Source: Okeania sp. KiyG1
GTDB lineage: Bacteria > Cyanobacteriota > Cyanobacteriia > Cyanobacteriales > Microcoleaceae
Length of the DNA stretch: 64,000 nt
NCBI RefSeq assembly: GCF_014132355.1
Contig: NZ_BLZO01000136.1
Coordinates: 57,891 to 121,890, forward strand
Direction of reading: 5' to 3'
The translations under genes were made by a program, and so were the position numbers. Positions within the stretch are counted from its first letter, which is position 1, and the number at the start of each line of letters is the position of its first letter. The notes under the pieces were generated by a model that was given only the letters and a program-made list of their open reading frames with translations, had not been told where the DNA came from and did not search any database. Below, one piece after another: positions 25,833 to 53,453 of the stretch.

Positions 25833-25906
25833 TAGCTCCCCATTCCGGTACAGAAATGCTGTTTGCGCAGCATTCCGGTACGGAAAATACTGATCGCTTA
25901 TTTAAT

Positions 25907-30721: not shown

Positions 30722-31994
30722 TCAGGTCTTACAGTCGCTCCACAGACTGACACTGCTCCTCCCGCAGCCTTCGAGCGTGGGCGTTCCCTTGCGTCTGACG
30801 CCGACGCGGGTTCCCATCCGCAAAATATTTATTGAAGCGTTTATGTCCCTGTCATGGTGAGCTGCACACTCTGGGCCATCCCACTCTCTTACACTTAGAG
30901 GTAATTTTTCTACTATATGCCCACAATTAGAACAACGCTTTGTTAGCGTTTGCGAAGCATTCCGATAGGAAAGCTCCTCTGAAAGAGGCACTAGGAAAAT
31001 ATCTATCAATCTTGATTAATTCCCGTCCATACCATTGAGCTTTGTATTCTAATTGCCTGACTAATTCGGACCAGTTGGCATCACTACCCACCCCTCTTGC
31101 TCCCCTCCCGGGAGGGGATGGGGGTGGGTTATGGTTTTTGACCATGTTTTTTACTGCCAAGTCCTCAACTACAACAGTTTGATTTTCTCTGATTAATTGA
31201 GTGGTCAACTTGTGGGTATAGTCTCCTCTTGAATCTTTAATTTTTGCGTGTATCCTAGCTACTTTCAGTCTCGCCTTTTGGTAGTTATTAGATCCCTTAG
31301 TTTTTCTAGATAGATACTTCCCCGCCAATCTCAGCTTTTTGTGTAATTTGTTTATATTCTTAGGGTTAGCAATTTTTTTTCCATCACTGGTAGTAACTAA
31401 ACTGGCAATTCCGCGCGTCAATACCTATTTGTTTTTTGACTGGTTTAAGTTTTAAATCTCTGGTATCATTGACTCTCAAAGACACAGACCATCTACCACA
31501 GGAATCAAGTTTCACTGTTATTGTTGTTGGTAAACAATCTGGTGGCAGTTGTCTACTCCATCTCATAGGTAACGGTTCAGCACATTTAGCTAGATAGACT
31601 TGACCATCTTTCCACTTGAACGCTGATGAGCGTAAATTCAGCACTACCACCCGGCGCGCTTTTTCTTAAAGTAGGGATATTTAGTCCGCCCACTAAAAAA
31701 GTTAGTGTTTGCGCAGCATTCCGCAGGAAAAGCTGTCTGTAAGTGTCTCAAGCCTTGCTGTAAGGGTACACTGCTTACTTCTTTTAGGAAATCTAAATCT
31801 TCCTGCTTTTTCCAGTGAGTCAGCATAGCGGAAGTTTGCTTATACCCTACTCGCTCTTTATTTTCATACCAAGCTTGAGTCCTTGCTGCTAAAGCTCTGT
31901 TGTAGATCAGTCGAACACACCCCAATGTTCTCAGCAACAGGTTTTCCTGTTCTGGAGTAGGATAGAACCTAAACTTGTAAGCTTTTTCAACCAT
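30722..31994 (-). pseudogene. tnpB (IS200/IS605-type), broken by mini-palindrome insertions
   Basis: RNA-guided nuclease gene, now in at least four frames. Pieces in order: KAYKFRFYPTPEQENLLLRT and CVRLIYNRAL (N-terminal HTH), KYPYFKKK, then the WED/RuvC part with QIGIDAR, LIRENQTVVVEDLAVKNM (RuvC Glu), YGRELIKIDRYF, and RCSNCGH ... DRDINASINIL (zinc finger and third Asp). At 31707-31727 a 21-nt GTTTGCGCAGCATTCCGCAG insert sits in frame between QTAF and NFFSGR. At about 30935-30985 a composite insert of about 49 nt between DRYFPS and KRCSNCG shifts frame, and near 30785-30825 a CGTCGGCGTCAGACGC-containing insert alters the tail. Possible left-end sequence near 32040-32105. Confidence 0.88.
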
Positions 31995-31999
31995 TTACT

Positions 32000-32809
32000 A
32001 CTTGCTAATTCTAGGTTTACATTCTAATATATTCTGTGTGAAACCGCAAAATTGATTGGCATTCCCATCCCTCCGCTCCCGATCTGCGGAGAGCGCGGGT
32101 ATAAATGTCAACATTTAGATAAAAATTATCTTCATGTATCTTGTATCTTGAGAATATATTAGATTCCCCCCTCCTCTGTAGCAATGGCTCATTTATTGTC
32201 GCCAGAGAATATTTGCAACTCTATATTTTTGGTTAACTAATTCTAGCCAGATGTACGAAATTTCAAGGGATAAAATTTTTCTCCCTTGACGATAAATTGA
32301 CCCTACTCCCCCACTCCCTTACTCCCTGAGCAAACAATGAGGTCCAAAGCCTCCCCTTTTAAGCTATCCCTTACCAATAAGTCTTGAAACCCTTGTGAGG
32401 AAAAGGGAAGCAGCGGTGCGACCCCGCGGGGCGCGTCAGACGCAAGGGAACGCTCACTCCTGTGAGGGAGCAGGGGAGAAAGGAGAAAAAATCAATTTAG
32501 CTAAGTAAAACTACTGAAGTAGTTAAAAGAATGTATTTTTCTATACATTTTTTCTCCCGAAAAAGTCTTGGCTCGACTTATGCATAACTAGTCTATTTTG
32601 TCAAGTATTATCTTAAGAAAGATGTGGATAATGGATAGCCTTTTAAAGGGATGAAAAAAATTCAATTCAGTATTTTCAAGCCTCCGGTTTTAGTCGGAGG
32701 TACTGATAACTGATAACTGTTAACGCAGTTCCTCCGGAGGAGGCTAACTGATAGCGTAGCTCCTCCGCCAGGAGGCTAACTGAAATGACTCCCTACTTTG
32801 TTTTTGGCC
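32000..32809. other. Intergenic with a 295-bp dispersed repeat
   Basis: Contains the repeat 32355-32649 (ends CCTTTTAAGCTATCC / GGATAGCCTTTTAAAGG) with a GCGACCCCGCGGGGCGCG mini-palindrome inside (32411-32470), and CTCCGGAGGAGGCTAACTGA units (32690-32785). No gene. Confidence 0.65.
32355..32649. mobile_element. MITE-like family 8 (TTTTAAGCTATCC ends), copy 1
   Basis: Inverted ends TTTTAAGCTATCC / GGATAGCCTTTTAAA. A related interior (AAAAATGTA ... TTTCTCCCGAAAAAG ... TTAAGAAAGATG) also occurs at 36867-37112 and, nested, inside 11444-11975. Confidence 0.6.
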
Positions 32810-33490
32810 ATGAATGATACTCAACTGCAACTCCATAAATTCTGCTTGGGGGGCCTGAAAACTTTTATGGCCTCAGCTTTTTTGTTTTTGTCATCCTTGA
32901 CAATTGATACTAATCATGCTTTTGGTGTAGAAACTTGTCAACCTCCTGCTACTGACGAATATTTACTGGTAATAATTACAGAGACATCAGCAGCTCAAAA
33001 TATAGTTAGACGGAGTCTACCGCCAGATATTATCATCGAAGTCTGTCGCTACATTGACCAGACTGTTAGTAGTATCCGAGGTTTTGATGACCAAGATGTG
33101 GCTAGTGATTGGGCGCGTTATATTCAGGACATTGTAGGGTTGTCTGCTTATGTAGTTAGACCTAGCGAAGAAACAACTCCATCAGATACTCCATTACCAG
33201 CGCCTCCTGAAATAGGATTTAATCCTCAACCTCTGGGTAAGGGTTTTGCAGTTTTAGTCGATTATAATAATCAACCAGAAATTGCTCTACAGTTGGAAAG
33301 AAGTTTAGGGCGAAATGTAGGTTTAGTTGCCTATGGACAAAAACCTTTCTTATTGGTTACATATACTGAGAATAGGAAAGCTGCTACAAATAGCTTATTC
33401 AACTTAAGCGATCGCGGATTTTTAGCTTTTGTTGTGGATAGTAGCAGGGTGACATTAATTAGTCCTAGAATTAAATCAATCAATAACTAA
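32810..33490 (+). CDS. Conserved secreted protein of unknown function (cyanobacterial type)
   Basis: 226 aa from ATG 32810; a TTG four codons earlier is a weaker start. The N-terminus has a long n-region and a hydrophobic stretch (TFMASAFLFLSSLT) ending near a NHAFGVE cleavage-like site, so export is likely. The mature part contains a proline-rich linker (PSDTPLPAPPEIG) and a C-terminal domain with NQPEIALQLERSLGRNVGLV and FLLVTYTENRKAA. This looks like the cyanobacterial secreted protein class with a SPOR-like fold, but I cannot name it. Its stop overlaps the end of the convergent gene at 33480 by 11 bp. Confidence 0.72.
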   Translation: MNDTQLQLHKFCLGGLKTFMASAFLFLSSLTIDTNHAFGVETCQPPATDEYLLVIITETSAAQNIVRRSLPPDIIIEVCRYIDQTVSSIRGFDDQDVASDWARYIQDIVGLSAYVVRPSEETTPSDTPLPAPPEIGFNPQPLGKGFAVLVDYNNQPEIALQLERSLGRNVGLVAYGQKPFLLVTYTENRKAATNSLFNLSDRGFLAFVVDSSRVTLISPRIKSINN

Positions 33491-33935
33491 AACTAGCAAC
33501 CCAAGATACAGCTACTCCTAGAACAAAACCTGCTATTACCTGTATGGGAGTATGGCCTAATAACTCTTTGAGACGGTCTTGACTGAGATGGTGGTCTTCT
33601 TGGAAAAATTCATCGATAATTTGATTGAGAATTCTTGCTTGTAGTCCGGCAGCTTGACGAACTCCCGCTGCATCATACATTACTATTATGGCAAAAACTA
33701 AAGCCAGTGCAAATTCTGGACTCCCCCAACCTTTGGCTTGACCCACTCCTACTGCCAGTGCAGCTACAAATGCAGAATGAGAGCTGGGCATTCCCCCTGC
33801 TGTGACTAAAGCCTGTAAATTAATCTTACCATTTTGAACTAACTCCACCACTACCTTGACCACTTGGGCTATTCCACAAGCTAGGAGGGCAACCCATAGA
33901 ACATGGTTATCCATGATTTCGCCAATATTTTGCAT
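33480..33935 (-). CDS. Divergent PAP2 family membrane protein (DUF212)
   Basis: 151 aa with several hydrophobic helices and the hallmark GGMPSSHSAFVAALA (a variant of the phosphatase SRPSSHS motif) plus YDAAGVRQAAGLQA and HTPIQVIAGFVLG. Members are distant relatives of PAP2 lipid phosphatases whose reaction is not settled. Nine bases separate it from crtE upstream on the same strand, so the two are almost certainly co-transcribed. The pairing with geranylgeranyl diphosphate synthase is common in cyanobacteria and hints at a role on prenyl diphosphates (inference). Confidence 0.9.
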   Translation of the reverse strand: MQNIGEIMDNHVLWVALLACGIAQVVKVVVELVQNGKINLQALVTAGGMPSSHSAFVAALAVGVGQAKGWGSPEFALALVFAIIVMYDAAGVRQAAGLQARILNQIIDEFFQEDHHLSQDRLKELLGHTPIQVIAGFVLGVAVSWVASFSY

Positions 33936-33944
33936 ATTGTACTC

Positions 33945-34895
33945 CTAGTTACTGCGACTGACAATAAAATCTGCTAAGGCTATTAAAGGCATGGCCTTTT
34001 CTCCAAAAACTTCTAACTCTGCCTTGGCATTCTCAATTAGTTTTTGAGCTTGAGACCAAGATTCTTCTAGTCCCCAAATAGCAGGATAGGTAGCTTTTTG
34101 AGCCTCAATATCCTTTCTGGCGGTTTTCCCTAGCTCTTCTGTTGTGGCAGTAATATCGAGAATATCATCAACTATTTGAAAAGCTAGACCAATATTTTGA
34201 GCATAACGGGAAAGTCTTTGTAGATTAGTTTGGGAAGCATTGGCAAGTATTGCTCCACAGACTACGCAGGTTTCTAAAAGAGCGCCTGTTTTGTGAGTAT
34301 GGATAAAATGCAGTGTTTCTTCAGATACCTCTGAAAGTCCCTCTGAAGCCAAATCTACTACTTGACCTCCGACTAACCCTGCTGCTCCCACAGCTTTTCC
34401 GAGATGAGCTATTACTTGTAGCACTTGCTGTGGTAGGACATTCTTAGTTTGAGTAGCTACAAACTCAAAGGCGTAACTTAACAGACCATCCCCTGCCAGA
34501 ATAGCAATATCCTCACCATAAACTTTATGGTTTGTTAATTTACCTCGGCGATAGTCATCGTTATCCATTGCGGGTAAGTCATCGTGGATCAATGACATAG
34601 TATGGATCATTTCTAATGCACAGGCAGTAGGCATTGCCATTTCTATATTTCCGCCTGATAATTCACAACTAGCCAAGCAAAGAATTGGACGTAACCGCTT
34701 ACCACCTGCTAATAGGGAATAGCGCATCGCCTCATAAATTTTCTCTGGATAGACTACGGTAATAGAATTGTCCAGAGCTTTTTCAACCAGAGCTTTTTGC
34801 TTTGCTAGATAGGTAGATAGGTCAAAAGTTGTATCTATTTGAAATTGAGGGAGCATGGGATTAATATTATGGCCACTATTTGGCATTAGCACCAT
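33945..34895 (-). CDS. crtE: Geranylgeranyl diphosphate synthase (polyprenyl synthetase)
   Basis: Builds GGPP from IPP and allylic diphosphates for carotenoids, the chlorophyll phytyl tail and quinones. 316 aa. Seen: GGKRLRP (substrate Lys/Arg), first Asp-rich motif [26 protein letters not shown], and second Asp-rich motif [24 protein letters not shown]. The ATG at 34895 gives a short non-conserved leader; Met4 is an alternative. Overlaps no other gene; leads the crtE-PAP2-like pair. folD lies 650 bp upstream on the same strand. Confidence 0.94.
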
Positions 34896-35547
34896 AGATT
34901 ATACACTTTATCGGTTTCAATCCTGAAAATTTATTTGAAGAAGGTTTTGGGTGGTAGGTGGTAGGTGGTAGGTCTTCAACAATTAATAATTAATAATTAA
35001 TAATTAATAATGAATTATTACCTTTCCTTTTAAAGAATAGGATTGACTCCAAGGACAATTTTTCTTTTCCTTCAACTGCTATAAAGTATAAGCTGTCATG
35101 TCAGTTAGCCTCCTGTCGCAGGAACTGCGTTAACAATTATCAGTACCTATTGAACGATTCTTTGCAGGACAACATTTCAGAGGTGTCACTTCAGTTTAAT
35201 GTTAATTAGGGTTTGCTGAAAAAGTCTAATAGTGATGATAGGGAACACTTAACTGGGAACAGGGAACAGTTTAGACTATCTGTCATGGCCACATTTTCTG
35301 ATAGTTACTGTCAAAACTTTACTATTTTGAGACGACAACAGCCAAAAACTAGGTACTCTTTCCAGACCTAAAAAGGCTCAAACCTTTATTGAATAGTGCT
35401 TTTATATTTAATCAGCAAGCCCTAATTATTCTTATTTTTACTTCTCCCCTACTACCCCACTCCCTGTACGGACGCCCTTATGCAACGTCCCTACCCACTC
35501 CCTGACCTATCCGTGTATCCGTGCCATAATCTGTGTGAGCCACTTCC
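34896..35547. other. Intergenic between folD and crtE
   Basis: Contains GGTAGGTGGTAGGT repeats (34950-34975), a heptamer array (34981-35010), a CTCCTGTCGCAGGA palindrome, and the MITE 35218-35423. No gene. Confidence 0.6.
35218..35423. mobile_element. MITE family 4, copy 3 (AATT target repeat)
   Basis: Ends AGGGTTTGCTGA / TCAGCAAGCCCT, 206 bp, with AATT directly repeated on each side (35214-35217, 35424-35427). Confidence 0.8.
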
Positions 35548-36411
35548 CTACTTGAGTAAACTACTCCAGCGTTCTACAGTATTTTGTAATAATATGGCTA
35601 CAGTCATCGGGCCAACTCCACCAGGCACGGGAGTAATAAATTCTGCTACCTCCGCTACAGAGTCAAATTGAACATCTCCCACTAATCTACTATTGCCTGC
35701 CTCATCTGTGACTCGATTAATTCCTACATCTATTACTGTTGCTCCTGGTTTGACCATCTCCGCCGTAATCATTTCTGGCCTACCAACTGCTGCTACGAGA
35801 ATATCTGCATTTCTGGTTATGTCCTCTAAATTCTGAGACCGAGAATGGGCAATAGTTACTGTACTATTAGCTTCTAATAACATTAATGCCATTGGTTTGC
35901 CGACCAAAATACTACGCCCCAGTATTACTGCTTGTTTTCCCGGTAATTCTATTTTGTATTCTTGCAACAAGCGCATCACCCCCGCAGGAGTACAACTGCG
36001 TAAACCTTTTTCACCTCGGAGCAGTTGACCTAAATTCATGGGATGAAGTCCATCTACGTCTTTACTGGGGTCTGTTTGGTAGAGTAAAGAAGTAGAGTCT
36101 AAGTGTTCTGGAAGAGGTAGTTGGACGAGAATGCCGTCTACTTCTGGGTTTTGGTTTAATTGTTGAATTACTTGTGTTAGTTCAGCTTGAGATGTTTGGG
36201 CCGGAAAATGTTTGCCGAAGGAGGATATTCCTACTTGACTACAGGCTTTTTCTTTGTTGCGGACATATACTGCACTGGCAGGGTTGTCTCCCACCATTAA
36301 TACTGCTAACCCCGGAGGACGACCAATTTTGCTTTGCAAAGTTTGAACTTTTTGTTGGAGTTCTGCTTTGATTTTTTTGGCCAGTGCTTTACCGTCTAAT
36401 TTATTTACCAT
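35548..36411 (-). CDS. folD: Bifunctional methylenetetrahydrofolate dehydrogenase / methenyltetrahydrofolate cyclohydrolase
   Basis: One-carbon metabolism: interconverts methylene-, methenyl- and 10-formyl-tetrahydrofolate with NADP. 287 aa. Seen: [20 protein letters not shown] with YVRNKEK (catalytic Tyr/Lys region), [30 protein letters not shown], the dinucleotide loop [25 protein letters not shown], and [13 protein letters not shown]. All are FolD signatures and the length is standard. Monocistronic start without a clear SD; oriented toward crtE. Confidence 0.96.
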
Positions 36412-38085
36412 GGTTATTTCTTGTTTGAGTTTTGTTTTGAAAATTCTGTATCGGAATAGATTTCTTTATTTTTATTTTTGATTTTTAAAGTATATTTTTT
36501 GTCAACATAAGAATAATAGTATGGTTGTTAGTATCTAAAAGTAGATTTTGTGATGTTTTAAGTAAATAAAAATATTGTTTAATTTTGGGCACTAAAGGAT
36601 TCAATATAGAGTTAAATATTTTATTGGTATTATGGAATAATAGAGTATTTTTATTTGAAAACTAATATTTTAGTGGAATCTAGGATAATTTCAGTTAAAA
36701 GTTAACTGTTATCAGTATCTCAGTTTTAAACTGGAGGCTTGAAATACTGAATTTTATTTTTTTATCCTCTTGAAGGAGCAGGCTTGAGGCTTTATTTATT
36801 TGGTCAGGATGAAAGAATTAAACAATTAATAATTAACAATTACCGAAAATTTGTGGTCTCAAGTCTCCCTTTTTAAACTATCCCTTATAAGGAATTCCTG
36901 AAAACTTTGTGGGGAGTAGGGGAGCAGGGAGCAGGGGAGAAGGAAGAAAGAATCATAGTAGATAGGAAAAAACAACTTAAGTAATCAAAAAAATGTACTT
37001 TTTAATAAACTTTTTATCTGACAAAAACCTTTTATCTAGTTGTAGATAACCTGTCTATGCTATCAAGTTTTATGTTTTAAAAAATGTTGATAAAGCATAG
37101 CTTTTTAAAGAGATAAAAACAGAAACTATTTCTGATATCAAGCCTCTTTATTGCAGAGGTACTGATAACTGATAACTGATAACTGAAATGACCGAAAAAT
37201 TGTGGTTGAAAGCCTCCTAATTTTAAGAGGATAAAAAGCGGTCTCCGGATGGCGTTTGCTACCGCAAAGCTTTCCGTTCCGGAATGCTACCGCAAACGCT
37301 AACAGCGGAGCGGCTCTGATAAGAGCGGGTCTCGGAGCCATATCCAATCGACCAAGAGAAGAAAAATTTTCATGATTAGTCAATTTTTAAAGGAGAGGTA
37401 ATTCTAAATTCTAAATTCTAAATTCTTGAACTCTCCTTCAAAAAAGATGTTTTTTTCTTTTTTATCTTTGATGAGTAGAGGCTTTAAGGCTTAATTTTTA
37501 GGTGATAATTAAAAAAAATTATAGCAGTCAAAGCAAGGGTTAGGATAGTTCTATAGCAATATGATTTGAGTTGTGAGATATTGCAAACTTTTAGGGAACA
37601 CCTAAGCTGGGAACAGGGAACACAGAAGTAGAAAAAACCTATCATATGAATATAATAATTGCTATATTCTATACTTTTAAGGAATATCTCAATTCTCACA
37701 ACTGATTCCTGATTGCTATAAAACTTAAAACTCAGACAACGCTAGATTTTTTATTCTTATTTCTTCCTTCTTTGTTCTGCTATACTTCTAAATTTTAAGT
37801 ATGATGAAAGTGATGGAAATAAATTTTATTTTTTTAGTAATAATTATAAAACCATAGTTTAAATAAGGAAAAAAAGTTTTGATGAAAACGAGGGAAGCCA
37901 TTAATGAAGTCAGAAGTCAGAAGTCAGAAGCGGTGCGACCCCGCGACGACGTCAGTCGCAAGGAAACGCGCACCAAGAGAGTCAGAAGTTATTTTTGTGA
38001 CGGGAATTTGAGCAAGCCTCCAAAAAAAATTGGCCTTAAAAGGGGGAGGTTTAGACCCAATTATTTTGATAAAAATGTATTGAGA
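36412..38085. other. 1.7-kb intergenic with dispersed repeats
   Basis: Contains the family-8 repeat (36867-37112), a mini-palindrome region (37225-37345), an inverted hairpin pair around 37490-37700, and AGTCAGAAGTCAGAAGCGG with a GCGACCCCGCGACGACG element (37910-37979). Short open frames at 37138-37383 and 37484-37699 are made of these and are unsupported. Confidence 0.65.
36867..37112. mobile_element. MITE-like family 8, copy 2
   Basis: Ends CCCTTTTTAAACTATCCC / ATAGCTTTTTAAAGAG with the same interior as 32355-32649. Confidence 0.55.
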
Positions 38086-38556
38086 ATGAATTTATTAAGG
38101 ATATTGCAGAAGTTTCCATTTAGCTTTCTGTTTATTCCTTCTTTCTGTTTAAATCCATTGTTTAATAAATTCAAAACTATTCTAATTCTGTTGTTAGTAA
38201 CAAATTTAATTAGTTGCGGAAAAATTACAGAAACAGCGATTAAATTAAATCTGAATGTGAGTCGAATTAACAAAATTCAAACAAGGGGTAAAATCGATCG
38301 CCAAGTATATTTGAAAGGAACTGTAGAAAGTCAAGCTCCATTCTTAGAAACTGGTGCTTATGAATTAACAGATGATACTGGCAGTATTTGGATATTTACT
38401 ACAGCAGAATTACCAGAGGTGGGAACGGAAATAACAATTAAAGGGAAAATAAGTTATCAAAGTATAGTGGTTCCCGAATTAGGAAACCAGGATGTGGGAG
38501 ATTTTTATGTAGAAGAAATAGAACGAGTAGAAGTTGAAAATCAAAATCAAGAGTAA
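38086..38556 (+). CDS. Lipoprotein with an OB-fold-like domain
   Basis: From ATG 38086, 156 aa: a long signal region ending in LILLLVTNLISCGK, where LISC fits a lipobox with the Cys as lipidation site. The mature domain (QVYLKGTVESQAPFLETGAY, ELTDDTGSIWIFT, PEVGTEITIKGKI) has the strand pattern of the bacterial OB-fold (YgiW/tOB-like) proteins. The frame is open 207 bases further upstream, but that extension translates a tandem AGTCAGA repeat and a GC-rich mini-palindrome, so it is not credible as a start. Function unknown; envelope location inferred. Confidence 0.72.
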   Translation: MNLLRILQKFPFSFLFIPSFCLNPLFNKFKTILILLLVTNLISCGKITETAIKLNLNVSRINKIQTRGKIDRQVYLKGTVESQAPFLETGAYELTDDTGSIWIFTTAELPEVGTEITIKGKISYQSIVVPELGNQDVGDFYVEEIERVEVENQNQE

Positions 38557-38633
38557 GCATTTCCTGCGGAATGCTGCGCAAACAGCTATTAGCTGATAGC
38601 TGACGGCTGAATGCTTTTACAATCAAGAAGAAA

Positions 38634-39080
38634 ATGAATAACAATAATTTACCTCATGTAGCGATCGCTATTCTTTACCGAGAAGGGAAATTTCTGATGC
38701 AACTCCGGGATAATATTCCGAATATTTTTTATCCTGGTGTTTGGGCTTTTTTTGGAGGTCATATCGAACCTGGAGAAACAGCAGAAGTGGCTCTGAAAAG
38801 AGAATTAGCAGAAGAAATAAGTTATATACCTGAGACAGTTTCGGAGTTTGGTGTTTACTCTGATGTTAAAGTTGTTCGTCATGTATTTTATGCTCCTTTA
38901 ACTGTGGAATTAAAAGATTTGGTTTTGGGAGAAGGTTGGGATATGGGGTTATTAACTCCAGCAGAAATTAAGGCTGGTAAAGCTTATTCTGAGAATGCTG
39001 GAATGGAGCGATCGCTTGGTGAATTTCATCAAAAAATTCTCTTAGATTTTATGGATAAATATGGTACTTTAATTGATTGA
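38634..39080 (+). CDS. Nudix hydrolase
   Basis: 148 aa with a complete Nudix box GGHIEPGETAEVALKRELAE followed by E: G-x5-E-x7-REL-x-EE pattern, which binds Mg2+ and cleaves nucleoside diphosphate-linked substrates. The preceding YPGVWAFFGGH is typical. Which diphosphate is cleaved cannot be predicted. Separated from the lipoprotein gene by a GCATTTCCTGCGGAATGCTG mini-palindrome (38551-38583). Confidence 0.88.
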   Translation: MNNNNLPHVAIAILYREGKFLMQLRDNIPNIFYPGVWAFFGGHIEPGETAEVALKRELAEEISYIPETVSEFGVYSDVKVVRHVFYAPLTVELKDLVLGEGWDMGLLTPAEIKAGKAYSENAGMERSLGEFHQKILLDFMDKYGTLID

Positions 39081-39488
39081 AACTTGGAAATTATTTTAGA
39101 TAATTTTTCCGCTGGTTACTGGGAATTAACTCTAATAATGTGCGGGTAATTAAAACAGAAATTATTTATCAAAATAACATGGGTCTAAAATCCCGCCTTT
39201 TAAGGCGAAATATTTTTGGAACCTTGCTCAAATCCCCTACTTCCCTCCTCCTGGGAGGGGTTAGGGGTGGGTTGGGAGGGGTTAGGGGTGGGTTTACTTC
39301 TGACTTCTGACTTCTTTAAGAGGTACACTTATCGCGGGCAAGATGCCCGCACTACAATAATTTTACTATCCAAATTTGTACCTCATTTGTCCGGAATCTG
39401 CTGTAAGACTTCAAATCAAAGAACTGATAACTAATAACTAATAACTGATAACTGATAACTAATAACTGATAACTGATAACTGAATAGA
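39081..39488. other. Intergenic, AACTGATAACTAAT tandem repeats
   Basis: TAGGGGTGGGTT runs (39250-39295) and ACTGATAACTAATAACT tandem units (39420-39482). No gene. Confidence 0.6.
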
Positions 39489-40310: not shown

Positions 40311-40335
40311 AAAGCTCGTTTTAAGGGAGGAAATT

Positions 40336-40600
40336 ATGAAAGAATCTATAATTTACCAAGATATTTTTCAGGAAGGAGGACAACGTGCTTTTCAAACGAG
40401 GTTTTAAACAGGGACAAATTGCAGTTATTATCACATTAATAACTCACAGATTCGGAGATATTTCTGAGACAACAAAAGCTCAAATTCGGAGGAGAGATAT
40501 TTCTCAGTTGAATGAGTTAGCGATCGCCCAATTGAATTTTACTTCTCTCGATGATTTAACTAATTGGTTATCTGAGCATGCCATCGTTAATATTGGTTAA
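40336..40600 (+). pseudogene. Second DUF4351 module, frameshifted
   Basis: KESIIYQDIFQEGGQRAFQ (from ATG 40336) then, one frame over, FKRGFKQGQIAVIITLITHR and QLNFTSLDDLTNWLSEHA. It copies the 3' part of the gene before it. GGGAGG six bases before the ATG could allow separate translation, but the frame break stops it early. Confidence 0.7.
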
Positions 40601-40627
40601 GTCAATCTGAGAATTAAAAAGCTCGTT

Positions 40628-40942: not shown

Positions 40943-41017
40943 TTAGTAGTTTTGTCAATCTGGGTTTTGAGGAATTTGATGACTGAAGAGTTTAAGATTC
41001 TGATTCAAATTCCTTTT

Positions 41018-42405: not shown

Positions 42406-42439
42406 ATCAAAAATTTTTTATATATTTTGTTAGTTGGTT

Positions 42440-43461: not shown

Positions 43462-44060
43462 ATCAAGAATTTAGAATTTAGAATTTAGAATTAGGGACTA
43501 GCAAAAAAATAGACTAGAGATTGCTTCGGCTAGGTTGACTCTTTCCGGTTAAGGTTGAGTCTAATATCACCGCCTCGCAATGACAGAAACAGGCTTTTTT
43601 TATGTACTAATAATTGGTACTTTATTAAGTTGCAAATCCCTTACCTCTTTTTATAAATAAGAGGATTGGTTAAAAGGATTTTTTTTCTTTTCTTTGTCGA
43701 TTGAATATGACGAGGAAACCTCGCAATCCCATCCCTTAAAAGGGAGGCTTTCAACCTGAATTATTGAATTATTGAATTATTAATTATTCGGTAATTTAAA
43801 AGTGATTAACAACTAATTAATAAGTCAATTTCATATAAGCATTCAGCTATTAGCAGTCAGCTATCAGCTTTTGAAGGTAATAACTTACTAAAGTTATCAA
43901 ATAACCTTTTTCTTTTGGTGCGGAATGCAGAAGCAAACATAACTTTTAATTTCCTTGGATACTAATTCCTCCTTCAGTGCAATAATGAGCTAATAACTCA
44001 TAGCTGATAGCTGATAGCTGACCGCTGTTTGCGCAGCATTCCGTAGGAAATGCTTAAATT
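43462..44060. other. Intergenic with mini-palindromes
   Basis: AATTTAGAATTTAGAATT repeats (43470-43490) and a GTTTGCGCAGCATTCCG mini-palindrome (44023-44055) next to CTATCAGCTTTTGA-type segments. No gene. Confidence 0.55.
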
Positions 44061-45355: not shown

Positions 45356-45581
45356 GGATAGTTTAGAAATATAGACTCGTGATTTATCGTACCATAATAA
45401 ATTTATTTACTATCCAAAATAGATAAATCCATACTTTTCCATACTTTTCCATACTTTATTTGTGAAACTGCATAATTTTTCCGTATTTTATATGTAAATT
45501 ATTTCCTTACATTTTCCCATTGTTACTCTAATTATTAAATGTAAATATAGGAGACAACAAAGTAATAAAGGAATTTTAACG

Positions 45582-45881
45582 ATGACTACATTTAATAATA
45601 ATCAAAACTCTACCTCTGCCACAATGGAACAACTCGTAATTCAAGAACGCCTGCGCCAAGCAAAATTAAGCTTTAATATTGCTCTAACCTTAACTGTAAT
45701 TAGTGCCATTATCAGCGTAACAGGTACGGGGCTTTTACTGTCAGGAAAAACTTCTGAAGGAACAGCCACAACAGCAGGCGGACTTGCTTCACAAATTGTC
45801 AGTATCGGTTTACTAAAAATGACTAAAGATACCAATGAAAGACTCGATAAAATAGCAACTGAATTTCAAGACGAAGATTAG
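45582..45881 (+). CDS. Two-TM small protein resembling the cyanobacterial TRADD-N-associated membrane domain
   Basis: 99 aa. A polar N-terminus with QERLRQAKLSFNIALTLTVI leads into two hydrophobic helices (IALTLTVISAIISVTGTGLL and TTAGGLASQIVSIGLLKM) split by a SGKTSEG turn, then KDTNERLDKIATEF. This arrangement, including the SEGTxTTAGGLAS turn, matches the 2-TM domain described next to TRADD-N domains in cyanobacterial conflict systems, as I recall the family. Divergent from the HTH-NTPase gene across 226 bp that holds an ATACTTTTCC 11-mer repeated three times (45431-45465). Possible membrane-damaging effector or signalling anchor (inference). Confidence 0.68.
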   Translation: MTTFNNNQNSTSATMEQLVIQERLRQAKLSFNIALTLTVISAIISVTGTGLLLSGKTSEGTATTAGGLASQIVSIGLLKMTKDTNERLDKIATEFQDED

Positions 45882-46028
45882 AAGAAAGCAAAGATTGGTA
45901 GACAAATATTTACCAACTCTACTAGAATTATCTGATACCAAATTTTGATGAAGCTGCATATAACTAGAGCTTATAAAAGTATTGTCTTGCTTAAGTTTAT
46001 TCTGTGCAACTTCACATTAAATTGGTAT

Positions 46029-46260
46029 ATAGCGTTTCTCAAATTGATTAGATACAGTTTTAGATCCCCCCTAACCCCCTTAATAAGGGGGAACTGCTTA
46101 AAATAGTTTCAAAGTCGCCCTTAATAAGGTTGGAAACCCCTTAAAATAGGTTTCAAAGTCGCCCTTAATAAGGTTGGAAACCCTTAAAATAGGTTTCAAA
46201 GTCCCCCTTTTTAAGGGGGATTTAGGGGGATCGTAAATGTATTTTTATGAGAAATGCTAT
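46029..46260. mobile_element. MITE-like element with ATAGC(G/A)TTTCTCA ends and internal tandem repeat
   Basis: Inverted ends ATAGCGTTTCTCA / TGAGAAATGCTAT. Inside, three imperfect copies of a TTTCAAAGTCGCCCTTAATA unit of about 45 bp (46108-46210) and CCCCCTTAATAAGGGGG palindromes. TA flanks the left end. Just upstream, ATACCAAATTTTGATG and ATTAAATTGGTAT (about 45933-46028) form another inverted pair. Confidence 0.7.
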
Positions 46261-46292
46261 AAAACATTTCTATATTTAATTATTTCTGAAAA

Positions 46293-47036
46293 ATGAGTCA
46301 AAACTATCAAGTCTGGACAAAAGCAGACCTTGCACAAAAATATCTTTCTGGTGTCAGGAGTGCAATTCCTTTAGCTACTGAACAAATTGAAATTATCTTG
46401 AGAATTATTCAGGGAACTAGACCTCAAGTAAATAACTTTTTAGATTTAGGTTGTGGCGATGGTATTTTAGGTCAAGCAATTCTCAGTCAATACCCTAATT
46501 CTCAAGGAGTATTTTTAGACTTTTCAGAAGCAATGATTGAAGCTGCAAAAAGTAAAGTTGCCGATGATTATCAAGCTAATTTAGAATTTATCAATCAAGA
46601 TTATGGTTTACCAGAATGGGTAAATAAAATTCAGGGAAAAGCACCATTTGATGTAGTTGTCTCAGGATTTTCTATTCATCATCAACCAGACATCAGAAAA
46701 CAAGAAATATATCAAGAAATTTACCAATTATTAAAACCAGGAGGATTATTTTTGAACTTGGAACACGTTGCCCCGCCATCTAAATTAATTGAGCAGTTAT
46801 TTGATGAATTATTTGTTGATTCTCTCTATGCTTTTCATCAAAATCAAGGCAACAAAAATCAATCTAGGGAAGAAATTAATCAGCAGTATTATAGTCGCCC
46901 AGATAAAGAAGCAAATATTCTTGCTCCTGTAGAAACTCAATGTGACTGGTTAAGAAAAATAGGTTTTATTCATGTTGATTGTTTTATGAAATTGTTTGAA
47001 ATAGCTTTATTTGGTGGTATTAAACCAGAAGTTTAA
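46293..47036 (+). CDS. Class I SAM-dependent methyltransferase
   Basis: 247 aa. SAM motif I NFLDLGCGDGILGQAIL (about residues 48-64), motif II GVFLDFSEAMIEAA, FDVVVSGFSIHHQPD (about 127-141), and YQLLKPGGLFLNLEHVAPPS. The C-terminal part (EEINQQYYSRPDKEANILAP, CDWLRKIGFIHVDCFMKLFE) is typical of Methyltransf_25/11-type enzymes on small molecules. No operon partner; a MITE ends 33 bp before the ATG. Confidence 0.82.
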   Translation: MSQNYQVWTKADLAQKYLSGVRSAIPLATEQIEIILRIIQGTRPQVNNFLDLGCGDGILGQAILSQYPNSQGVFLDFSEAMIEAAKSKVADDYQANLEFINQDYGLPEWVNKIQGKAPFDVVVSGFSIHHQPDIRKQEIYQEIYQLLKPGGLFLNLEHVAPPSKLIEQLFDELFVDSLYAFHQNQGNKNQSREEINQQYYSRPDKEANILAPVETQCDWLRKIGFIHVDCFMKLFEIALFGGIKPEV

Positions 47037-47111
47037 ATAGAAGGAAGAGGGAAGAAGGAAGAAGGAAGAAGGAAGAGGGAAAAATATTGCTTTGTCTGAG
47101 TTTTAAGCTGT

Positions 47112-47312
47112 TAGATATCTCCGATAATAAAAAATCAAATTAATTCTCCTACTATATACATTAACAGGACTTAGGCAAAACCACCACATATAGTAGGGGC
47201 GAACAGCCGTTCGCCCCTACAGATGGTGTATAATTTCCTTTTTTGCGTAAGTCCTGATTAATTTTTTCCGCCTACTCTCTACTCTCTACTCCCTCTTTTC
47301 TAGAGATATCTA
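47112..47312. mobile_element. MITE family 6, copy 2, containing a nested family-3 MITE
   Basis: Ends TAGATATCTCC / TAGAGATATCTA and interior TAATAAAAAATCAAAT. Element 47165-47256 is inserted inside it. Confidence 0.65.
47165..47256. mobile_element. MITE family 3, copy 2 (nested)
   Basis: CAGGACTTAGGCA / TGCGTAAGTCCTG ends, GGGGCGAACAGCCGTTCGCC palindrome in the centre, 92 bp. Confidence 0.85.
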
Positions 47313-47594
47313 TTGATTGAACTGGGGACAAATTACCTGATGATATCAGCTATTATTACCTCAGCTCCAATTACAAAGAAAGAGGATGTATTTTGGTTTC
47401 TTTCCTACTCACAGCTTTTCCAACTTCAGGTCTCCCCTACTCCCCTGCTCCCCTACTCCCCTGCTCCCCTACTCCCCTACTCCCCTACTCTCCTACTCCC
47501 TACCCCTGACCAGTTAAAGCATCTGCAAATGGATCGGGCAAAGCTTCTTGTATTTCCATGTCTTCATTTTCTTCAACAGATAAATCATCACTAT

Positions 47595-47933
47595 TTAGAT
47601 TTTTTTTAAAATATTTTGGTTATTTTTGCGCCGACTAAAATCTTGTAATCTTACCAACTCCTGTTGATAAACAGAAATAATTTTTGCCAGAGACTCTGCC
47701 ACTTCATTCCAACTTTCATCATCTACAATTTTTTCAGCAATACCTTGAAATAAATCTCCACTTTGGTTTTTTTGAACATACTCCCTCAATAATTTCCCAG
47801 ATTTTTGTAAAGCAGCCTGATAAGCTTCTCCATCAGACCACCAAAGTCCGGGTTGATTCAATAACCAAGTCAAAATATATTCCTGAGCGTGTTGCTCTTT
47901 TACCCAATTAGCAAGATACTTTAATTCATCCAT
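47595..47933 (-). CDS. Small acidic protein of unknown function, tail lost by a poly-A frameshift
   Basis: 112 aa, soluble, helical (LANWVKEQHAQEYILTWLLN, WNEVAESLAKIISVYQQEL). I do not recognise the family. The frame ends ILKKI at an A8 run (47600-47607). With one more A it would read on through NLNSDDLSVEENEDMEIQEA and LPDPFADALTGQG to a stop at about 47505, an acidic tail of the kind found in cyanobacterial proteins. The shifted extension has sensible composition, so the run is a likely indel or slippage point. CTCCCCTACTCCCC repeats follow. Confidence 0.55.
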   Translation of the reverse strand: MDELKYLANWVKEQHAQEYILTWLLNQPGLWWSDGEAYQAALQKSGKLLREYVQKNQSGDLFQGIAEKIVDDESWNEVAESLAKIISVYQQELVRLQDFSRRKNNQNILKKI

Positions 47934-48739
47934 AAATTACCTCTTGAATCATACCAATTATCAATACCAATACTATGTTTAATTTAGACTTTCAAATAAA
48001 TATTTTATCACGCTTGGTATAAGACTGAATGTAAGCATTCAGCTAGCTGTTACCGAATAATTAAGGTTTAAAGCCTCTCCTTATAAAGGAGAAACAAGCG
48101 GTCGAGGGATGGCGAAGTCTCCTCGCTGTCCGACCATCGACCAAGAGAGAAAAAATTTTCCTTTTATTCAATCCTCTGCCTTTTAGGGAGAGGTAATTAT
48201 CAATTATCCATTATCAATTATCAATTATTGAACTAGCCTCCTGCGGAGGAACTGCGTTAACAGCAATAAGACCTTGTACTTAAGGACAGGGTTGAAATTA
48301 ATACAGACTTTGGAGCTGACTTTTGTAGTAAGATTTTTCGTTTCTCAATTAAATATTGCTTTTATCACTTACTAAAAGCAATAGCTGATAGCTGATAGCT
48401 GATAGCTGACCGCTGTTTGCGCAGCATGACCTAGGAAATGCTTACGAATGAATTGATTTATACAGAATTATTAATCTGTATTATAAATCTACAAAAATCA
48501 AAAATAGAATCAATTCTTATCCATAAATTATCAATTACTTCTCCCTGTTCCCTGTTCCCTCTTTTCTGTTGCCTCTTTTCTGGAGAGGTCTATTAAATAC
48601 GCTTTTTTTGTATCAACCTATACTTGAAATCTTAAAAAACCTTTACTAGAAAAAGTCAAAAAAAACACCTGTAATCTAAAGATTGTACTGAAAACAGTAC
48701 TTAAAATTTAGTAGAGAAACTCAGGGAAGTCAAAATATT
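47934..48739. other. Intergenic upstream of gnd
   Basis: Repeats: an ACCTCTCC/GGAGAGGT inverted pair flanking a GGTCGAGGGATGGCGAAG segment (48070-48195), GCTGATAGCTGATAGCTG units (48385-48410), the GTTTGCGCAGCATGACC mini-palindrome (48415-48445) and a family-6-like remnant (48490-48595). The gnd promoter should lie in 48600-48739, where AGATTGTACTGAAAACAGTAC gives a TGTACT/AGTACA inverted pair. Confidence 0.55.
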
Positions 48740-50161
48740 ATGGGACAGCAAAAATTTGGTGTTATAGGTCTAGCCGTAATGGGAGAAAACTTAGCTCTCA
48801 ACGTAGAACGCAATGGATTTCCCATCTCCGTATACAATCGCAGTAGTGATAAAACCGAGAAATTTATGGCAGAGCGGGCACAAGGTAAAGATGTCTATGC
48901 TGCCTACACTCTAGAAGATTTTGTCCAATCTCTAGAAAGACCCCGCAGAATCTTAGTTATGGTAAAAGCGGGAGGACCAGTTGATAAAGTCATCGAACAA
49001 CTAAAACCTCTCCTAGACAAAGATGATATGATTATCGATGGTGGTAACTCCCTCTACGAAGATACAGAACGTCGCACTAGAGATTTAGAATCCACCGGAT
49101 TAGGTTTCATGGGGATGGGAGTTAGTGGTGGTGAAGAAGGAGCCTTATGGGGACCTAGTTTAATGCCAGGGGGTACAGAGGCTTCCTACAAAGAGTTAGA
49201 AGCAATCTTAACTAAAATAGCAGCTCAAGTTGATGATGGTCCTTGTGTCACCTACATCGGTCCTGGTGGTGCTGGTCACTATGTAAAAATGGTACACAAC
49301 GGTATTGAGTACGGCGATATGCAGTTAATTGCTGAAGCTTATGACTTACTCAAAAATGCTGTTGGTATTAGTAATGAACAACTCCATGAAATTTTTGCTG
49401 AATGGAATAAAACTCCTGAGTTGGAATCCTTCCTAATTGAAATTACCGCCGACATCTTCACTAAGAAAGATATTGAGACTAGCAATCATCTAGTTGATAT
49501 GATTGTTGATTCTGCCGGACAAAAAGGTACAGGTAGATGGACGGTAATTAATGCTTTAGAGTTGGGTGTTGCTGTTCCAACCATTACCGCTGCTGTTAAT
49601 GCTCGGATTATGTCTGGTATTAAGGATGAGCGCGTAGCTGCTTCTAAAGAATTGACAGGTCCGACTGGTAAGTATGAAGGCGATGCCAAAGTTATGATCG
49701 ACAAGGTTCGCGATGCTTTGTATTGTTCTAAGATTTGTTCTTATGCTCAGGGTATGGCGTTGTTAGCTGCTGCATCCAAGGAGTTTAATTACAATCTGAA
49801 TTTGGGTGAGTCGGCGCGAATTTGGAAGGGTGGTTGTATTATTCGAGCTGGCTTCTTGAATAAGATTAAGAAGGCTTTTGATGAAAATCCTGGTTTGCCT
49901 AATTTATTGCTAGCACCAGAATTTAAGCAGACTATTCTCGATCGCCAAGATGCTTGGAGGGAAGTTGTTGCTACTGCTGGTAAGTTAGGCTTGCCTGTAC
50001 CTGCATTTAGTGCTTCTCTGGATTATTTTGATAGTTATCGTCGAGCAACTTTACCTCAAAACTTGACTCAAGCTCAACGGGATTATTTCGGCGCTCACAC
50101 TTATGAGCGTATTGATAAAGCTCGTGGTGAGTTCTTCCATACTGAGTGGCCTACTAAGTAA
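48740..50161 (+). CDS. gnd: 6-phosphogluconate dehydrogenase (decarboxylating)
   Basis: Oxidative pentose phosphate pathway: 6-phosphogluconate + NADP to ribulose 5-phosphate + CO2 + NADPH; important for dark respiration in cyanobacteria. 473 aa, standard length. Seen: [16 protein letters not shown] (NADP fold), [66 protein letters not shown] (catalytic Lys/Asn), [15 protein letters not shown], and [29 protein letters not shown] before the ATG is a fair ribosome site. zwf is not adjacent here. A hairpin made from HIP1 sequence follows the stop. Confidence 0.97.
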
Positions 50162-50186
50162 TTCTTTCTATCTGTTTAAAAATTAG

Positions 50187-50230
50187 GCGATCGCTCTTTA
50201 TGCTAAATCAAATAGGAGCGATCGCTTTTA
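50187..50230 (+). terminator. gnd terminator built from HIP1 octamers
   Basis: GCGATCGCTC (50187-50196) pairs with GAGCGATCGC (50216-50225), followed by TTTT. The 19-nt loop is AT-rich. Confidence 0.7.
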
Positions 50231-50471
50231 GCTATCCTTGTTTCCTAGAGTTTTGCATCTTGGTTGATTACTCCAGATATCGTTAACAAGAATAGAGCTA
50301 ATTCTGAAGTCGAATTACTTTGAGATTTGCTAATGATAATTATTGAGGATTATTCTTGAGATATTTAGAAGTTAGGTAGATTACGCTCTCTATTACCTAA
50401 TAACAAAATTACTAACAAGACTTTAAAAAACAACAAATTTTATCTCATTTTATGCTGACATTTGTTGCTGA

Positions 50472-50684
50472 CTATTTGCTGGAATCATGTTTCTCGGAAA
50501 GACTTTCTAGAGATTCTAAAACTAATGGTAGTTCAGCTAAAAAATTTGTCACTATTGCTTCATCTTGATCAACTCTATGATTGCTGACAGTAATTTCTTT
50601 CTGTGATATTTGATAACTCATAAGTTGCTGATTTAAGTTTTCAGTTAATGTTAATTTCTTAGTATTTGATGTTATTACAACCAT
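50472..50684 (-). CDS. Small protein of unknown function
   Basis: 70 aa, soluble, no family recognised. The ATG at 50684 is preceded by GAGGAGAAATCC, a strong ribosome site, and the frame does not consist of dispersed repeats, both of which support a real gene. Composition is hydrophilic with many Leu and Glu (FLAELPLVLESLESLSEKHD) and would form helices. Convergent with gnd. Confidence 0.5.
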   Translation of the reverse strand: MVVITSNTKKLTLTENLNQQLMSYQISQKEITVSNHRVDQDEAIVTNFLAELPLVLESLESLSEKHDSSK

Positions 50685-51629
50685 GGATTTCTCCTCAATT
50701 AATATAATTGAAGGAAGGCTTGCATATAAAAATTACTCTTCCCTTCTACTTCTATCATTACTACTTTTGGTTCTTATATGAAAAAAATGTAAAACTGTTT
50801 TACAATTATTAGGGATCGATAATAAATAATAATTTCACTTAATCAAAAAATATTTCATTTTGTCCTTTTTAAAAAACCTTAATTTATATCTAAATATTAG
50901 TTAAGTACTGGAGAGTACAAAGTTCTTCTAAAGAATGATTAGCTTTCAAGACTAAAAGTATTACTGGAAAAGGCTTACAGCACCTACAAATCTGAATAGA
51001 AAGTTTCTAACCTTTAGATAGCTGAAAGCCTTAGCTAGCAATAGTTATTCCTAGAACTTTGCACTGTCTAGTTAAGTATTGAAGCACCTTTTAGTCAAAA
51101 ACTTAATCAGAGAAGAGACAGCAAATTAGAACTTACTTGGAATCAGGGTGCAAAAATCGGTAGTGCGTCAAGGAAGTGTGGGGAGGGTGGGGACCCACCC
51201 TAGCCCCTCCCCGACCGTGGAGGGGAATGTGGGGAGAGCTAAGAAAGAAAGTAGGAGGAATAATTGTTGGGTGTATATTTATTGTGCTTGTCTTGATGCC
51301 GTCCTAACTTTTTGGTCCAACAAGCTTAACAACTCGCACCCCCTTCGCAACAAAAATACGCTCAACCTTATATATATCAGTGCTGACTGATTACCAACCG
51401 CCTGCCCTACTTACTTATCCCACACTTTGGTAATGCACAACCCAAAAATCGCACTCTAAAAAACTTAACTAGCTATCAGCTTTTCCTAACAGACTGCTCC
51501 CCAAACAGATACCTAATTATATGCGCAAATTTTTAGGCTGATAGCTGTTTGCGTAGCATCCCGTAGGGAAGCGCTAATAGCTGATAGCTAGTCAAATCTC
51601 CCGCAAGAGGAACAAAAAAGCCCTGATTT
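50685..51629. other. Intergenic, no gene recognised
   Basis: AT-rich to about 51130, then CCCTAGCCCCTCCCCGACC runs (51180-51230) and a GTTTGCGTAGCATCCCGTAG mini-palindrome (51545-51575). TCTAACCTTTAGATAGCTGAA and CTAGAACTTTGCACTGTC segments have no match elsewhere in the window. Confidence 0.5.
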
Positions 51630-52130
51630 TAGTTGAGAGGCTTAAAGCTAATAAAAAAGGGCTACTTCAAAAACCTTTATGGTTAGTTTTTATGGGTAAA
51701 TATAAACTAGATTTACTCCCCCTAGAATTACTGTGGAAAAAATATTTAAGGCGCTTCGCTGTTGACCATTGGTATAGATTTATCAAGCAAAGATTACATT
51801 GGACATTACCTGCACTCAGTACACCTCATCAATGTGAAAGATGGAGTGAGAAACATGCCATTACTAACTTGGCAATTATGGCTGTCTAGAGATATAGTTG
51901 AAGAACATCATCTTCCTTGGCACAAGCCTCAGAAAAATTTAAGTCCAGGGAGGGTTGCACAATCAATGTTCGGACTTTTAGTCGAGATTGGAACTCCTGC
52001 TAAAACTCCCAAACCCCGTGGAAAATCTACTGGTTGGAAAACAGGTAAAATCAGAAGCAAAAGAACCCGTTATCCTGTAGTAAAAAAACGAAAAAGTCCC
52101 ACAAAAAAAGCCAAAAATCTGAAAACTTAG
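51630..52130 (+). pseudogene. 3' fragment of an IS701/IS4-like DDE transposase
   Basis: ILVERLKANKKGLLQKPLWL, LLWKKYLRRFAVDHWYRFIK and QRLHWTLPALSTPHQCERWS (to about 51850), then after a frame change LLTWQLWLSRDIVEEHHLPW and NLSPGRVAQSMFGLLVEIGT, ending in a Lys/Arg-rich tail. This is the C-terminal half of a transposase type common in cyanobacteria, with the DHWYRF and R-rich tail motifs. The N-terminal half is absent. Confidence 0.8.
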
Positions 52131-52214
52131 ACTCAATTTTTGGTTAATTTACCTTCTTTTTTCACCCAAAACAATCTTGGGAAATTTTGTCGTAGTCTAA
52201 ACTCCAGACTCAAG

Positions 52215-53453
52215 CTACTGATGCACATAGTTTTTCAAGTTGATAGCAGCATTTCCTAGGTCATGCTCCGCAAACAAATCTCTATCAGTTTCAAAACCGC
52301 ATTCACTACATTTGCGCTCCGCAAAGCTGCGCTAACATAAGTTCTCAAGTTTAACGGCATTTTCTGTTGATGCCCACAGTTTGAACATATTTGAGAACTT
52401 GGATAATATCTATCCGCTATGACTAATTCACTGCCGTACCATTCACATTTGTATGTAAGCTGGCGCTTAAATTCATAAAATCCACAGTCTGCTATGGCAC
52501 TTGCTAGTTTATGGTGTCTTGGTGCGCGTTCCGCAAGCGAGCTGGCGTCGTCGCGGGGTCGCACCGCTTTTTCAACATTCCACTTACATTGTCATACCTC
52601 AATTACTATGGTGCTGTGATTTTTAGCTAACCACGAAGTGAGTTTATGTAGTGCATCTGCTCTGATATCAGCTACTGCTTGGTGCGCGTTCCGCAAGCGA
52701 GCTGACGTCGTCGCGGGGTCGCATCCGCTTTTTTGTGAAGTTTTGCTAATTTTTTTACTGCTTTGCGTCTGTTTTTAGAACCAATAACTTTTTTGCTGAC
52801 TGCACGTTGATGACGAACTAAGTGTTTTTTGGCTTGCCTGTAGGCTTTGACGTTTCCGCTGTCGCGGACATGAAAAGCAAATTTGCTGCCATCAGAACAG
52901 GTTGCTAATGTATTTATGCCTATGTCTACACCTATAGTTTCTCCTACTTTTTCTGTTGGATCTTGTTCAAAATTGTACTTGAAACTGATGTAGCAACTAT
53001 CTGCTCGTTTGGATATGGTAACGTTTTTTACTGGTACAGAGGGTAAGATTTCATAAGTTTTTACTATTCCTATTCTGGGTAATTGTATGTTGTTTCCTTG
53101 GAAAATCTTAATACTTCCTTCTAAGTAAAAGCTGTCTTTTCTACCTTTTTTCTTAAATTTTGGGAATCCACGACTCGGGATTGTTAGAAAGTTTTTAAAT
53201 GCCCTCTCTAAATCCCTTAAGGCTTGTTGTGGGACCCGATCGACACCTCATAATACCAGGGATTAATTGATTTGACTTCAGCTACTAAACACTTATGCAG
53301 GGTGATGGCGCTTGGGCGTTTTTTAGTTTCTTCGTACTCAGTAATGCAAGTTGCTAATCCCCAGTTATAAGCATGACGTGCAACTCCTGCGTGTTTGGCA
53401 AGTATTGTTTTTTGTTGATTGTTAAGTTTTAACTTGGTCTTGATTGATTTCAT
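52215..53453 (-). pseudogene. tnpB (IS200/IS605-type) with four mini-palindrome insertions
   Basis: In order: KSIKTKLKLNNQQKTILAKH and AGVARHAYNWGLATC (N-terminus), FPKFKKKGRKDSFYLEGSIK, GETIGVDIGINTLATCSDG (first RuvC Asp), AYRQAKKHLVRHQRAVSKK, ALHKLTSWLAKNHSTIVIED (Glu), GFYEFKRQLTYKCEWYGSEL, YYPSSQICSNCGHQQKMPLN, and KCSECGFETDRDL ... NAAINLKNYVHQ. Insertions: a 50-nt-class type-B palindrome after LHKK (about 52678-52725), another before HHKLASAI (about 52526-52568), a 23-nt one before KCSEC (about 52318-52340) and an in-frame 21-nt one between DRDL and NAAIN (52254-52274). An early frame break near 53235 also exists. Confidence 0.88.

Follow-up and report, generated by a model that had tools for sequence, protein, structure and literature searches.

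A 21-nucleotide unit in tnpB and between genes of Okeania: a probable mobile micro-element of the small-dispersed-repeat kind

What kind of thing is a unit of 21 nucleotides (nts) that sits in frame in two tnpB genes of one cyanobacterial contig and recurs between the genes around them? The question is raised by a 64,000-nt stretch of Okeania sp. KiyG1 (contig NZ_BLZO01000136.1, positions 57,891 to 121,890), here called the window. The initial annotation of this stretch took the unit to be short, structured, mobile and precisely inserted, and at both tnpB sites that description is supported. Judged by identity and behaviour, the copies are very probably a mobile micro-element of the kind known as small dispersed repeats (SDRs). 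The repeat unit is a 21-nt insertion, TTTGCG N AGCAT TCCGCAGGA, with variants; it is seated between G and AA, and a target duplication is absent at its insertion site.

The unit in two tnpB pseudogenes

The first tnpB unit (TTTGCGCAGCATTCCGCAGGA, 31708..31728, plus strand) is antisense to tnpB1 and adds the residues PAECCAN; it had been placed one base to the left. The second (TTTGCGGAGCATGACCTAGGA, 52254..52274, minus strand), whose position needed no correction, lies in the sense direction in tnpB2 and adds FAEHDLG within DRDL|NAAIN. The host genes were thought otherwise normal. Both are in fact pseudogenes, with several stops, and with frame shifts that make the translation jump between frames. 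tnpB1 (30722..31994, minus strand, lower boundary approximate) is an OrfB of the IS200/IS605 family of insertion sequences (IS), with an HTH_OrfB_IS605 match on its first open piece, and tnpB2 (52215..53453, minus strand, boundaries approximate) has an OrfB_IS605 match on its middle open piece. Removal of the unit restores the family sequence, as had been proposed: an alignment with 80 relatives shows this for the first site, and matches to empty copies show it for both.

Copies, empty sites and the junction

Within the window there are 15 matches with at most three mismatches, against a mean of 0.47 and a largest count of 4 in 100 shuffles. Over the whole genome (10.98 Mb) a 23-nt pattern has 179 exact matches, its reversed control none. 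A looser search of 81 sources of this genome (80 stretches of contigs with listed copies, and the window; 1.66 Mb) gave 204 copies, of which 161 are 21 nts long, 31 are 22, 11 are 23 and one is 24. Three of the 204, in long unrelated frames (L145 at 4925 and 13378, L130 at 1319), are judged by their letters to be chance matches.

The unit was removed, its 45-nt flanks were joined and matching unfilled sites were sought for 256 non-overlapping copies (204 from this genome, 32 public and 20 from five related genomes). By a strict count 57 of the 256 have such a site at the exact boundary, and the number is also 57 on a set of 262 that includes six overlapping copies. Shifting the cut by one base leaves 35–39 and by two to four bases to the left 8–15; shifts of 2–12 bases to the right or 6–20 to the left leave none, and a cut one base longer or shorter leaves one. 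The preferred junction is YG^AA (G 93%, A 93% and A 86% among 166 distinct flanks).

The landing places are AGCTG^AATGCTTA repeats with ladders of heptamers, other palindromic repeats, tnpB and the unit's own copies. The AGCTG^AATGCTTA ladder varies in length in steps of seven (0, 7, 14, 21, 28, 35), and nested copies (5 of 256) are placed at TTTGCG^ inside other copies. Identical flanks are taken by different families, for instance AGCGGTCG^TGGGATGG and TAGGGGCG^AATGGCAT. The GGGGCG^AATGCC-type repeats are a separate small palindromic repeat and a frequent landing site, with 125 and 40 empty copies in two spellings.

Recurrence at one nucleotide of tnpB

The comparison for tnpB1 covers the best 80 of 145 relatives, 71 of these 80 being titled Okeania. 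Exactly 21 extra bases are present at the identical nucleotide in 14 of them and the site is empty in 66; the alternative raised at the outset, that close relatives all carry the residues, is contradicted at this site. Natural pairs with and without the unit occur at about 95% identity (the window with L044, and L031 with L050), and in L031 and L050 the joined 90 flanking bases are identical with the unit in one only.

In a careful tree of 74 copies, made after removal of the insert columns and of seven rows with long branches or gaps, 11 changes are needed for 14 carriers and all 11 are forced by starred branches. The 5–95% range over 200 bootstrap trees is 11–11, the bootstrap being not quite settled. 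A quick tree of all 81 copies needs 12 changes for 15 carriers, at least nine of them forced. Flank similarity is 0.840 between carriers and 0.832 between carriers and empty copies, and the nearest flank is that of an empty copy for 11 of the 15 carriers. The change counts and the flank comparison together indicate many gains, or precise losses, of the unit at a single tnpB nucleotide.

Reading frame

Of the 204 copies in this genome 17 are in tnpB, at seven or more different sites by our own reading, and 13 of the 17 are antisense to the gene. Fifteen of these 17 are 21 nts long and two are 22; since 146 of the 187 copies outside tnpB are also 21 nts long, the 21-nt length is not clearly over-represented in tnpB, and selection for frame was dropped as an explanation. 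As 21 nts are seven codons, the length itself accounts for tolerance in frame. No reading frame of 100 amino acids (aa) or more surrounds 175 of the 204 copies, while 29 lie within such frames. The coding copies identified are all in tnpB; in-frame copies in other genes are possible among the remaining short frames. In L190 the unit is located before a patatin gene.

Among the 14 public carriers two have a frame of more than 400 aa with all three TnpB domains (L037, 434 aa, and L070, 450 aa, the latter with a diverged unit). The window's own genome has another, L154, a TnpB of 450 aa with all three Pfam domains and the seven-residue unit. Aligned to its best-matching solved chain, an AI-designed RNA-guided nuclease behind which natural TnpB chains rank, the L154 unit appears as a clean gap. 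Such units can thus lengthen an intact-looking RNA-guided nuclease. Insertion into tnpB is incidental, this gene family being both abundant and dispensable, and full-length genes can survive an addition of seven codons.

Two mini-hairpins

The commonest form of the unit can be written TT-TGC(GNA)GCA-T-TCC(GNA)GGA, and about three quarters of the copies allow two mini-hairpins to be drawn, the loops being mostly GNA. Leaving loop 1 unconstrained gives GNA in 138 of 142 copies (N being C in 85, T in 30, G in 19 and A in 4), and leaving loop 2 unconstrained gives GNA in 96 of 99, with T-A as the outer pair of the second stem in 93 and C-G in 6. PMC4686876 describes extraordinary stability for DNA mini-hairpins that combine a GNA or GNNA loop with two or more G-C pairs, GCGAAGC having a melting temperature of 78 °C.

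The layout was also sought without regard to sequence, as [3 bp, GNA] N [3 bp, GNA] only, against a Markov control. In the 1.66 Mb of this genome there are 131 such places and 4 in the control. A spacer of 2 gives 48, and other spacers up to 7 give 3–9. Other loop types give 0 to 56, except that TNC also gives 131, which is the opposite-strand reading of the identical elements. Allowing GNNA adds 39 (control 3) and 31 (control 8). The families with at least three matches, named by their stems, are TGC/TCC (101), AGC/CCC (21), AAC/TGC (17), AGC/TGC (17), CGC/TGC (12), CGC/AAC (12), TGC/CCC (6) and AGC/GAC (3). Every copy of AAC/TGC, AGC/TGC, TGC/CCC and AGC/GAC has TT in front and AA behind, and AA is behind 87 of the 101 copies of TGC/TCC.

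Compensation between the arms of the stems was assessed on six of the seven distinct 22-nt inserts at one repeat, reversed loop order and other lengths being left out. Pairing is found in 94% of cells, the covariation score is reached by one of 500 shuffles, and sliding the partner abolishes the signal. This result is supportive, not a blind test.

Distribution and a Nostoc plasmid

Each of the six genomes searched from the genus has the pattern (80 to 179 copies), as do 14 of 60 genomes of the family, from 4 of 11 genera. In a class-wide sample of 194 genomes, only two of them from this family, it is in the present genome alone.

The shape scan of 600 kb of a Nostoc plasmid gave 25 places against one in the control. 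Its commonest family, TAGGCGTAGCCCGCCGCAGGC and kin (GGC/GCC), stands at GCG^ATC in 8 of 8 copies, and in 6 of the 8 at a full highly iterated palindrome 1 (HIP1). The published position of SDR5 is between nts 3 and 4 of HIP1 (PMC4390886), and that is the position these GGC/GCC elements occupy. TAGGC begins 11 of the 30 21-nt HIP1 inserts in Nostoc. Another Nostoc family is present in 3 of 106 genomes of the class, all three among the seven of the window's order. A 50-kb piece of a Trichormus plasmid has no match in the shape scan.

How the unit may move

The element itself is 21 nts long (22–23 nts in variants) and is found in YG^AA with no duplication of the target; most copies can be drawn as a 5′ TT followed by two neighbouring mini-hairpins of 3 bp, each closed by a GNA or GNNA loop. 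An enzyme acting in trans would recognise the folded single strand, not its sequence; it would excise or copy the strand and then join it to the 3′ end of YG. Host Y1 (HUH) transposases are candidate enzymes. A trans-acting enzyme that joins single-stranded DNA in this way is in keeping with the lack of duplication, the short preferred junction, the conserved pair of potential hairpins and the antisense orientation of 13 of 17 tnpB copies. This route, taken by itself, is plausible and we hold it tentatively, at somewhat under even confidence.

A bolder proposal is that of a shape-coded transposon: one enzyme, common to several cyanobacterial families, would move 21–23-nt strands of the form TT-[hairpin GN(N)A]-N-[hairpin GN(N)A] into YG^A, reading the stable mini-hairpins and not the sequence. 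We offer it as conjecture, possible rather than probable. If true, it would explain the targets and layout shared by families with unrelated stems, and few units known to be transposed would be smaller. How the repeats spread becomes accessible to testing through the double GN(N)A layout and the YG^AA target, as loops, stems and target can be altered singly.

Several observations count against this account. Mobility is read from sequence comparison, and no insertion event was witnessed; the tree is unable to separate gain from precise loss. A looser count of empty sites, 101 of 256 at the true place (104 of 262 on the set with overlaps), drops to 21 if the length is altered by one and stays at 72–98 with the cut shifted by up to eight bases; it backs the unit's length and not its place, and carries little weight. 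The rule G^AA is broken by some families, AA being behind none of the 21 copies of AGC/CCC, none of the 12 of CGC/AAC and 7 of the 12 of CGC/TGC. With both loops of 4 nts there is no excess in this genome (3 observed, 6 in the control), nor is there one for the GNNA scans in Nostoc (2 against 3, 1 against 2 and 0 against 2), where 21-nt splits of HIP1 are likewise not commoner (30) than those of other lengths (15 to 37). Two of the five measures in the compensation analysis, both cruder ones, are not unusual (120 and 84 of 500 shuffles reach them). Under generic DNA parameters the folding does not stand out (z −0.63 for the main variant), another pairing of 4 bp being preferred, and because the complementary strand folds better (−3.8 against −2.8), strand-specific hairpins have no support from energy folding. 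In 54 of 204 copies the second stem reads GAC...GGA and is down to one Watson-Crick pair, with possible G.A pairs. Finally, Y1 transposases are not a discriminating marker, being present in all 14 carrier genomes and in 43 of the 46 non-carriers alike; movement driven by Y1 is allowed.

The main rival is movement by way of RNA, in which a small folded RNA would enter YG^AA by reverse transcription or reverse splicing. RNA-mediated movement was reportedly proposed for small dispersed repeats by Elhai in 2008, and compensated stems fit RNA as well as DNA. The favoured RNA tetraloop, however, is GNRA, and the 4-nt loops here are GNYA in 64 cases and GNRA in 2, so selection as an RNA tetraloop is disfavoured; the antisense orientation in tnpB also argues against insertion into tnpB messenger RNA. 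We think this route rather unlikely.

Nor need there be a dedicated enzyme at all, if hairpin-forming 21-mers were copied by template switching in replication or repair. The units are very short with possible hairpins, and the heptamer arrays in the repeats do change length by sevens, from 0 to 35. The exact ends in unrelated contexts, the preferred YG^AA junction and the occurrence of different families at one target are hard to square with it, and we consider it improbable.

A selfish element retained for its in-frame peptide, in the manner of Rickettsia palindromic elements, would suit the frame in both window genes, and in 76 of the 204 copies none of the six frames meets a stop (a count made with no control). 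It is nonetheless very improbable with 175 copies outside any frame of 100 aa, the identified coding copies in tnpB, no clear excess of 21 nts there and both window genes dead. Ordinary TnpB sequence inherited in an IS lineage, or gene conversion among IS copies, is barely credible although three carrier pairs cluster in the quick tree (L034 with L036, L070 with L045, L039 with L040): the 66 empty relatives contradict the former as a general explanation, and the 11 tree changes, the unit's presence in many unrelated places and carrier flanks that are hardly closer to one another speak against both, conversion being possible at single copies.

Other copies and neighbouring features

All ten copies previously listed between genes were located, within 11 bases of where they had been put. 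The GACCTAGGA variant is at 5362..5382 (minus strand), 6217..6237 (plus) and 25068..25088 (plus), similar empty sites to the last being present elsewhere. The TCCGCAGGA variant at 6259..6279 (plus) sits in an AGCTG^AATGCTTAC repeat. A 23-nt copy at 25862..25884 (plus) has a second hairpin that can be drawn as TCCG(GTA)CGGA, and the copy at 38562..38582 (minus) adjoins the stop of the open reading frame 37879–38556. Intergenic too are the TCCGTAGGA variant at 44028..44048 (plus), the CCCGTAGGG variant at 51548..51568 (plus), with an outer pair C-G and not T-A, and the 22-nt GACAAACGGA variant at 59113..59134 (plus). A degenerate 23-nt copy is at 15865..15887 (plus). The remaining intergenic copy, 48416..48436 (plus), has a matching site in another genome (G006 C217, L216) with a different variant: TCCGTAGGA there replaces GACCTAGGA, and the adjoining DNA is 14 bases (two heptamers) shorter, as if variants replace one another in place.

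Both tnpB pseudogenes hold more than the unit first noticed. tnpB1 has a third copy, a 22-nt element (30949..30970, plus) with a matching empty site in L035, and this element interrupts the gene's frame ahead of the zinc-finger region. tnpB2 has a 23-nt sister-type unit (52313..52335, minus) with stems AGC and TGC, a second loop that is not GN(N)A, and a G^AA junction. Two near-identical inserts of about 50 nts in tnpB2 (GGTGCGCGTTCCGCAAGCGAGCTG..., 52521–52572 and 52680–52731) are, by eye, of another repeat family. A stop at KKR.GW* is at the identical place in 15 of 81 tnpB copies, that of the window (31640–31665) among them; the others are L031, L036, L041, L043, L048, L051, L052, L053, L056, L058, L059, L063, L071 and L086. 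A shared CGCGCCGGGTGG-type stretch is matched by 11 of the 81. One type of broken tnpB seems to have multiplied.

The GTTAACGCAGTTCCTCCGNAGGAGG-type repeats at 32725–32795 appear to be related and longer, their second GNA hairpin having five pairs. At 17850–18136 there is an Rfam match to the 5′ ureB small RNA (RF02514, 126 bits).

Relation to known systems

The first analogy offered for the unit was with Rickettsia palindromic elements, which share insertion in frame into genes. Those elements, as described in PMC10969869, are about 150 bp long and lie in many unrelated metabolic genes; the units here are 21–23 nts long, 175 of 204 are in no frame of 100 aa or more, and the identified coding copies are in tnpB, which has 17 of the 204. 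The analogy does not hold. The hallmark of miniature inverted-repeat transposable elements, a target-site duplication, is absent from the alignment of the best 80 tnpB1 relatives and from the inspected empty-site pairs.

IS200/IS605 elements use single-strand hairpins and insert at a short fixed target with no duplication. The present unit is like them in its potential hairpins and its short, duplication-free target; it differs in carrying no gene and in lacking distinct left and right ends, and tnpB of IS605 type is here among its targets. REP and REPIN sequences, with RAYT, are likewise short hairpin units that spread without a gene of their own, and Y1-type enzymes are in 14 of 14 carrier genomes, but REP and REPIN are far longer. 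The GTAG or CGTC tag, as named in the title of PMC3733652, is not in the unit consensus TTTGCGNAGCAT....

It had been said that no cyanobacterial equivalent has a name. Small dispersed repeats, as described in PMC4390886 and PMC3116915, are one, and the unit is filed with them. It is most like SDR5, in its 21-nt class, precise insertion, nesting, embedding in heptamer repeats and two-hairpin layout. SDRs were reportedly described by Elhai in 2008 in Nostoc punctiforme and relatives as dispersed, high-copy units of 21–27 nts, embedded in heptamer repeats and nested in their own copies, and SDR4–6 are said to share a secondary structure with compensatory changes across families. The present unit has that size and copy number, a fixed precise junction, heptamers and nesting, and a compensated structure. 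It differs in its stems, in its target, YG^AA and not HIP1, and in its lineage, the Microcoleaceae (Okeania, Hydrocoleum and kin). A literature search, with most subscription papers outside its reach, turned up nothing on these families in Okeania and nothing on such repeats having GNA loops. The pair of GN(N)A mini-hairpins that links unrelated families seems new, with priority possibly belonging to the 2008 work; so too do the families in Microcoleaceae, the YG^AA target and the repeated use of a single tnpB nucleotide for insertion.

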